A DNA stretch of 64,000 bases from Streptomyces sp. SLBN-31 (GTDB lineage: Bacteria; Actinomycetota; Actinomycetes; Streptomycetales; Streptomycetaceae), in assembly GCF_006715395.1 (NCBI RefSeq), contig NZ_VFNC01000003.1, positions 1,054,001 through 1,118,000 of the forward strand, written 5' to 3'. The notes beneath the pieces are model-generated. The model was given only the letters and a program-made list of their open reading frames with translations, did no database searches and was not told where the DNA came from. Of the stretch, positions 47,495 to 47,690 are shown in pieces (position 1 is the first letter of the stretch; every line of letters begins with the position of its first letter). A program made the position numbers and the translations under genes.

Positions 47495-47573
47495 ATGCGC
47501 AAGGGAATCCACCCCGCCTACGGTCCCGTCGTCTTCCGCGACCGCGCCGCCGGCCACGCCTTCCTCACCCGTT
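47495..47573 (+). pseudogene. rpmE2: 5' fragment of ribosomal protein L31 type B
   Basis: MRKGIHPAYGPVVFRDRAAG followed by HAFLTRS is the first ~27 residues of zinc-independent bL31 (normally ~85 aa). After the codons for TRS the L31 sequence stops and the 3' end of an S18 gene begins in a different frame. Read through, the frame yields a 73-aa product with a nonsense tail (Pro/Ala/His-rich). So the gene is truncated and probably not functional. Confidence 0.88.
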
Positions 47574-47690
47574 CACGGCAAGATCCGCAGCCGTCGGGTC
47601 ACTCACGTCACCGCCCAGCAGCAGCGCCTGCTGGCCCGTGCGATCAAGAACGCCCGGGAGATGGCGCTGCTGCCCTCCGCGGCCCGGTAA
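47574..47690 (+). pseudogene. rpsR2: 3' fragment of ribosomal protein S18
   Basis: In the frame ending at TAA 47688-47690 the sequence reads HGKIRSRRVTHVTAQQQRLL then ARAIKNAREMALLPSAAR, the last ~38 residues of bS18 (normally ~80 aa). No start codon is available in this frame, and it is out of frame with the L31 fragment. It is the far side of a deletion that removed the rest of L31 and the first half of S18. Confidence 0.88.

Follow-up and report, generated by a model that had tools for sequence, protein, structure and literature searches.

A putative zinc-independent ribosomal protein cluster with two gene stumps

The window, i.e. the whole 64,000-nucleotide stretch of Streptomyces sp. SLBN-31 DNA that was analysed, carries intact genes for paralogues of the ribosomal proteins S14, L28 and L33, next to what is left of the genes for type B L31 and zinc-free S18:

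46705..47010, minus strand: rpsN2, intact gene for a cysteine-free S14 paralogue of 101 residues (ORF, Pfam S14)
47010..47246, minus strand: rpmB2, intact gene for an L28 paralogue of 78 residues, with a single cysteine and without CxxC (ORF)
47293..47307, no strand: Zur-box-like palindrome TGGAATTCATTTTCA, between rpmB2 and rpmG2 (motif match)
47321..47485, plus strand: rpmG2, intact gene for a cysteine-free L33 paralogue of 54 residues (ORF)
47495..47574, plus strand: rpmE2 remnant, first 26–27 codons of type B L31 (ends of BLAST matches, Pfam L31)
47575..47575, no strand: deletion junction, a single A (L31 and S18 sequences of relatives)
47576..47690, plus strand: rpsR2 remnant, last 37–38 codons of zinc-free S18 and the stop, startless (Pfam S18, BLAST)
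47495..47716, plus strand: out-of-frame ORF of 73 codons spanning the junction, not a conserved protein (translation, protein search)

These are clustered paralogues without CxxC pairs and a Zur-box-like motif lies at their promoter, features by which the cluster would qualify as a zinc-independent ribosomal protein set. The palindrome fits a Zur-box consensus in 13 of 15 positions (maximum of 11 in 200 shuffles of the stretch); scored in the same way upstream of L33 in 93 loci, the best sites reached 13 in 38 loci, 12 in 19, 11 in 22, 10 in 7 and 7–9 in 7. The Zur site of S. coelicolor is given as tGaNNatSatNNtCa in the accessible part of PMC5472717, and this part, together with table 3 of PMC6103462, names rpmG2, rpmB2, rpsN2, rpmE2 and rpsR2 as Zur-regulated C− genes. 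The cluster in the window resembles that set in its ribosomal protein genes and Zur-box-like site (the S. coelicolor Zur regulon, as far as these sources give it, also lists a yciC/COG0523 gene), but differs in that only stumps are left of rpmE2 and rpsR2, and nothing of the gene that lay between the two. Besides rpsN2, one other gene of the genome matches Pfam S14.

The rpmE2 stump starts with the ATG at 47495 (MRKGIHPAYGPVVFRDRAAGHAFLTRS) and retains 27 of the about 87–89 codons of a cysteine-free type B L31, far from a full-length reading frame. It covers positions 1–27 of the 65 in the Pfam L31 profile (E=1e-5); its 26.1 bits fall slightly short of the cut-off of 27, as expected for a stump. 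The rpsR2 stump (GKIRSRRVTHVTAQQQRLLARAIKNAREMALLPSAAR), with 37–38 of about 80 codons, is likewise not full-length and covers positions 20–52 of the 52 in the Pfam S18 profile (E=1.8e-13). It lies in the next frame relative to the L31 reading frame, ends with the stop at 47688–47690, and its frame contains no ATG, GTG or TTG from the stop at 47424 to the ATG at 47661, which itself lies nine codons before the end. The original prediction, made from the letters of the window, had placed the two stumps correctly, with counts (about 27 codons of L31 and about 38 of S18) that hold within one codon, and was also right that the S18 part is startless and in a different frame.

From the ATG at 47495, translation would run through the 27 L31 codons into an out-of-frame tail and stop at 47714–47716, after 73 residues. 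An ATG followed by 73 open codons downstream of a retained Zur-type promoter region could in principle encode a novel small protein with a function of its own, or ribosomes could still reach the S18 end by frameshifting. We regard both as extremely improbable: the S18 frame has no start until its last nine codons, and although a protein search with the fused ORF had 180 matches, all 120 of these that were listed carry an L31 domain. The junction is also shared by none of the DNA matches listed from 391 other Streptomyces genomes. The protein match with the longest coverage (P0009, 75%) and the best match (P0003) align well on the L31 part only, over the first 27 residues, and are scattered beyond. 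A conserved fusion protein was rejected on these grounds.

Ancestral gene order and the extent of the deletion

In a DNA search against 149 other Streptomyces genomes, the leading matches among those listed stop at 47574, and in several of these genomes the match restarts at 47576–47577, about 1.5 kb farther along. Translation of the two nearest relatives gave, in order, L33, L31 (87–89 residues), a protein of about 380–410 residues, and S18 (about 80 residues). The middle protein resembles the mycobacterial factor MRF and is called MRF-like here. We collected 100 loci from 20 + 80 genomes, which were picked by similarity and are partly from outside Streptomyces, two of the loci (L038 and L089) being from one genome. 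In 74 of them, L33, L31, the MRF-like gene and S18 follow one another in this order on a single strand; the remaining 26 are cut by contig ends, show other arrangements (mycobacteria and others) or have lost genes. The ancestral layout is S14 and L28 running leftward, the Zur-box-like site, then L33, type B L31, the MRF-like gene and zinc-free S18. Relative to it, the missing DNA has a median length of 1500 bp (range 1419–2139), as measured in the 67 of 100 loci that yielded L31, S18 and the motifs of both; the other 33 were left out.

Since most inspected relatives have this third gene between the two stumps' counterparts, the event is a single deletion of about 1.5 kb, in which the MRF-like gene disappeared entirely, rpmE2 lost two thirds of its length and rpsR2 lost half. 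The relatives retain the intact ancestral state and the flanks are continuous. Their intact loci bear out the expectation of one deletion at this breakpoint within a zinc-independent ribosomal cluster; what had been proposed as a deletion between rpmE2 and rpsR2 was right as to a single event but too small in extent, and a deletion limited to these two genes was rejected on account of the third gene.

At the junction, the relatives' BLAST matches to the L31 part typically break off at about 47574, and those to the S18 part set in at 47576–47577. The L31 sequence of the nearest relatives here is CCCGCTCGACG and their S18 sequence GACCGCGGCAGG or GACCGAGGCAAG; most others have GACCGCGGCAAG, compared with CCCGTTCACGGCAAG in the window. 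Identity to L31 thus stops at 47574 and identity to S18 begins at 47576; the A at 47575 matches neither and is either a one-base filler or a later substitution. The suggestion that both genes shared a few bases at the breakpoint finds no support, as the junction overlaps with the relatives' L31 and S18 sequence by 1–2 bases at most. End joining that relied on hardly any common sequence, or on none at all, would have linked rpmE2 at codon 27 with rpsR2 at about codon 44.

Among the matches listed from 391 other Streptomyces genomes, none spans the junction, the furthest reaching about 16 bases past it. To 45–46 loci, the median nucleotide identity of the stumps (L31 88.8%, S18 86.7%) lies in the range of the intact genes (L33 92.0%, L28 87.3%, S14 82.0%), in loci that had been selected for similarity to this cluster; intact S14 is less conserved than the stumps. 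At the protein level, the L31 stump differs from the consensus in 1 of 26 residues (90 loci) and the S18 stump in 2 of 33 (82 loci), and all these differences also occur in relatives; 10 and 18 of the 100 loci, respectively, were left out of the consensus for a missing gene or motif or unequal length. By these comparisons the stumps appear undecayed, which points to a recent deletion.

No second strain of the species was found, and the junction is known from a single assembly, as one would expect if the cluster were intact in the strain and about 1.5 kb were missing from the contig through an assembly or sequencing error. This is very unlikely: the assembly comprises 3 contigs with a completeness rating of 100%, the rest of it holds neither a second intact S18 nor an MRF-like match, the short flanks of each breakpoint in relatives (24–27 bases) offer no shared repeat, and one relative bears a similar yet different scar (G020, see below). 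With high probability, the scar records the recent removal of about 1.5 kb from a Zur-type zinc-independent ribosomal protein set, by which the MRF-like gene and zinc-free S18 were lost.

The deleted gene encodes an MRF-like protein

The protein that separates L31 from S18 in the relative G011 gave a Pfam match to CobW_C (66.9 bits) and a partial one to cobW (24 bits). The top NCBIfam model for the Streptomyces protein is MRF, hibernation-factor-recruiting (NF047431), with 185–201 bits in three examples. All three fall under the curated equivalog cut-off of 375 and two mycobacterial controls score about 550; because of these scores and this comparison we name the protein MRF-like, not MRF. The accessible part of PMC13418864 describes MRF as aiding the binding of Mpy to zinc-free ribosomes in zinc starvation. 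In M. smegmatis, the C− operon MSMEG_6065–6070 is reported to be zinc-controlled and to contain MRF beside S18, S14, L33, L28 and L31 (PMC7174638, as far as accessible). The Streptomyces cluster has the same gene set, and MRF is the best NCBIfam model of its additional protein, but its homologues score 185–201 bits against about 550, and the gene is absent from the genome studied here.

The Streptomyces MRF-like proteins keep the CxCC motif (as CACC), and of 16 proteins checked, 15 have no canonical Walker A motif (G-x4-G[KR][ST]T) in their N-terminal part. The one that has it (L151), with 28% identity and more than 1 kb away from its S14 gene, looks on our own reading like an ordinary COG0523 protein. 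Judged by motifs and gene neighbourhood, the relatives of the deleted gene would be MRF-like, Walker-A-less relatives of COG0523 linked to zinc-free ribosomal protein genes. A GTPase label for these proteins (L037 2608–3831 and homologues) may be wrong, given the missing Walker A and the retained CxCC; mycobacterial Rv0106 is likewise reported without Walker A in the accessible text of PMC2770081. When the MRF-like protein of a relative was searched against PDB sequences, nothing matched at E≤0.01.

In the genome of SLBN-31, a search with the MRF-like protein was empty at E≤10; with the same query, 111 of the 149 other genomes gave a match at E≤1e-20, among the matches listed. The genome has three cobW-family matches: in our reading, one (C1:1408569) has a canonical P-loop and GCLCC and a second resembles UreG, and in the third (L159) a scripted scan found no long reading frame with a P-loop. 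It also carries a single PF02482 gene (hibernation-promoting-factor family). Any MRF-like step would be lost under zinc shortage, a role in Streptomyces hibernation being putative. Literature searches over titles and abstract openings listed no title that deals with a deletion of this type or with a Streptomyces MRF.

Remaining copies of L31 and S18 and their control

L31 genes occur in four places of the genome, one being the remnant in the window. Among the three intact genes, L001 encodes a protein with cysteines, whereas L002, a lone gene, and L003, which is clustered, encode cysteine-free ones; L003 adjoins a gene for a cysteine-free L33, and a further cysteine-free neighbour is probably L36, going by its translation. 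The original prediction had left the strain with only S14, L28 and L33 as zinc-sparing replacements and with no zinc-independent L31 unless one was encoded elsewhere. Two intact genes for it are present, as is the further L33 (and L36, by our reading), so that a loss of zinc-free L31 was rejected. S18 occurs in two places, the remnant in the window and one intact gene, which has CxxC. The search for full-length copies that the prediction had proposed hence recovered cysteine-free L31 twice, but the sole intact S18 elsewhere is of the zinc type: the genome is without zinc-free S18 and without an MRF-like protein. Under zinc shortage, the strain would remain able to exchange S14, L28, L33 and L31 for zinc-free forms, but would have no such form of S18.

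Upstream of the two cysteine-free L31 genes (250 and 450 bases searched), the best match to the Zur box was 8 of 15 positions, where 73-base shuffles average 8.3. The second cluster (L003) has a sigma-R-like pattern, GGAAT-N18-GTT, 88 bases upstream (before 1289); with spacers of 17–20, this pattern occurs 5 times in the 181 kb of strand searched. The accessible part of PMC2374992 reports rpmG3–rpmJ2 of S. coelicolor under SigR rather than Zur, and the second cluster (L33–L31–L36) resembles it in encoding cysteine-free ribosomal proteins. It differs from the Zur cluster in being intact, with the sigma-R-like pattern upstream and no Zur box found. As the surviving cysteine-free L31 genes show no Zur box, the L31 replacement would no longer be driven by Zur; judged from these upstream sequences, it may have left Zur control rather than vanished, the cysteine-free L31 of the second cluster sitting behind a sigma-R-type promoter pattern and presumably outside Zur drive. 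Another of the five, also GGAAT-N18-GTT, lies 130 bases upstream of L001 (before 1498), the gene for zinc-type L31.

A single L31 match was found in 15 of the 149 other genomes, among the matches listed, and in G011, the nearest relative, L31 matched four times; spare L31 genes are therefore not special to this strain. Earlier redundancy of L31 probably made the deletion tolerable, and because spare copies remain elsewhere, we consider the event mostly an ordinary gene loss.

Loss of zinc-free S18 and the MRF-like gene in other genomes

Zinc-free S18 is often missing: among the matches listed, S18 was matched just once in 43 of the 149 other genomes, although these include G001, an incomplete genome whose lone match is the cluster copy. 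The MRF-like match is missing in 38 of 149, again among the matches listed, half of these absences (19 of 38) being inferred from genomes that are not among the matching genomes listed. Taken together, 103 genomes have both the MRF-like protein and a second S18, 35 have neither, 8 only the former and 3 only the latter, among the matches listed (Fisher p = 7e-23, a value that ignores phylogeny and the adjacency of the two genes). The single-copy counts of S18 and L31 were read from the match lists by eye, and the MRF-like counts include one weak (G107) and two interrupted matches (G039, G138).

Two genomes showed what remains after such losses. In G020 (L051 1975–2403), L31 is intact and the opening codons of the MRF-like gene lead in frame into the final codons of S18 (VSLPLAVVAGLHTAAGTAMALLPYAGR). 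This scar was recognised by reading and then checked by shuffling: compared with L102, 11 of 15 residues are identical at the MRF-like start and 9 of 9 at the S18 end (300 shuffles reached at most 9 and 7); in tblastn searches, the MRF-like and S18 pieces did not reach E 0.05 in the scar. The MRF-like gene and S18 have gone from between L31 and the VOC-family gene, as in the cluster of SLBN-31, but the breakpoints lie elsewhere and L31 is uncut, whereas our scar truncates it. In G041 (L164 2577–3444), a 26-residue L28 match, L33 and L31 are present, no MRF-like gene exists in the cluster, and a diverged S18 remnant lies behind L31. G041 counts among the 3 genomes with a second S18 only, and this second match is probably the remnant. 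The same module was thus struck by two different deletions, in SLBN-31 and G020, and probably by a third decay in G041.

These independent scars, the remnant in G041 and the strong co-occurrence (103 both, 35 neither, 8 and 3 discordant in 149 genomes, among the matches listed) are what one would expect if the MRF-like gene and zinc-free S18 formed one functional module and some niches favoured losing it, as opposed to tolerated drift. We regard such an adaptive loss as possible but rather doubtful, since the two genes adjoin and one deletion removes both, the counts ignore phylogeny and take in the weak and interrupted matches, and some of the absences may be ancestral or losses of the whole cluster. 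Somewhat less probable still, and offered as speculation, is the broader proposal that the two genes constitute a dispensable Streptomyces module that has been excised repeatedly and independently, the strains concerned keeping zinc S18 and being unable to enter a zinc-linked hibernation of the mycobacterial type. If this were true, these strains would be a natural experiment separating zinc saving from hibernation, with ribosomes that are partly zinc-free but always contain zinc S18.

Taken alone, the deletion in SLBN-31 is the loss in a single genome of parts of a cluster that has been trimmed in many species. The strain is a natural mutant: its zinc-response cluster has retained S14, L28 and L33, while the MRF-like protein and zinc-free S18 are missing and L31 is apparently outside Zur control; a comparison with close relatives could reveal which proteins matter in zinc saving.

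The region downstream of the scar

Between 46000 and 49500, no known RNA family matched at the Rfam gathering threshold. The VOC-family gene (47767–48138) is followed by genes for an ArsR-like regulator and an SRPBCC-like protein, these names being our own reading. Directly before it, at 47709–47757, lies a perfect 21-bp inverted repeat (ATAGGTAGGAGATTCCCTACG) with a 7-base spacer, which is probably the operator of that regulator. A similar palindrome, imperfect in some cases, precedes the VOC gene in 11 of the 100 loci, where this gene was found.
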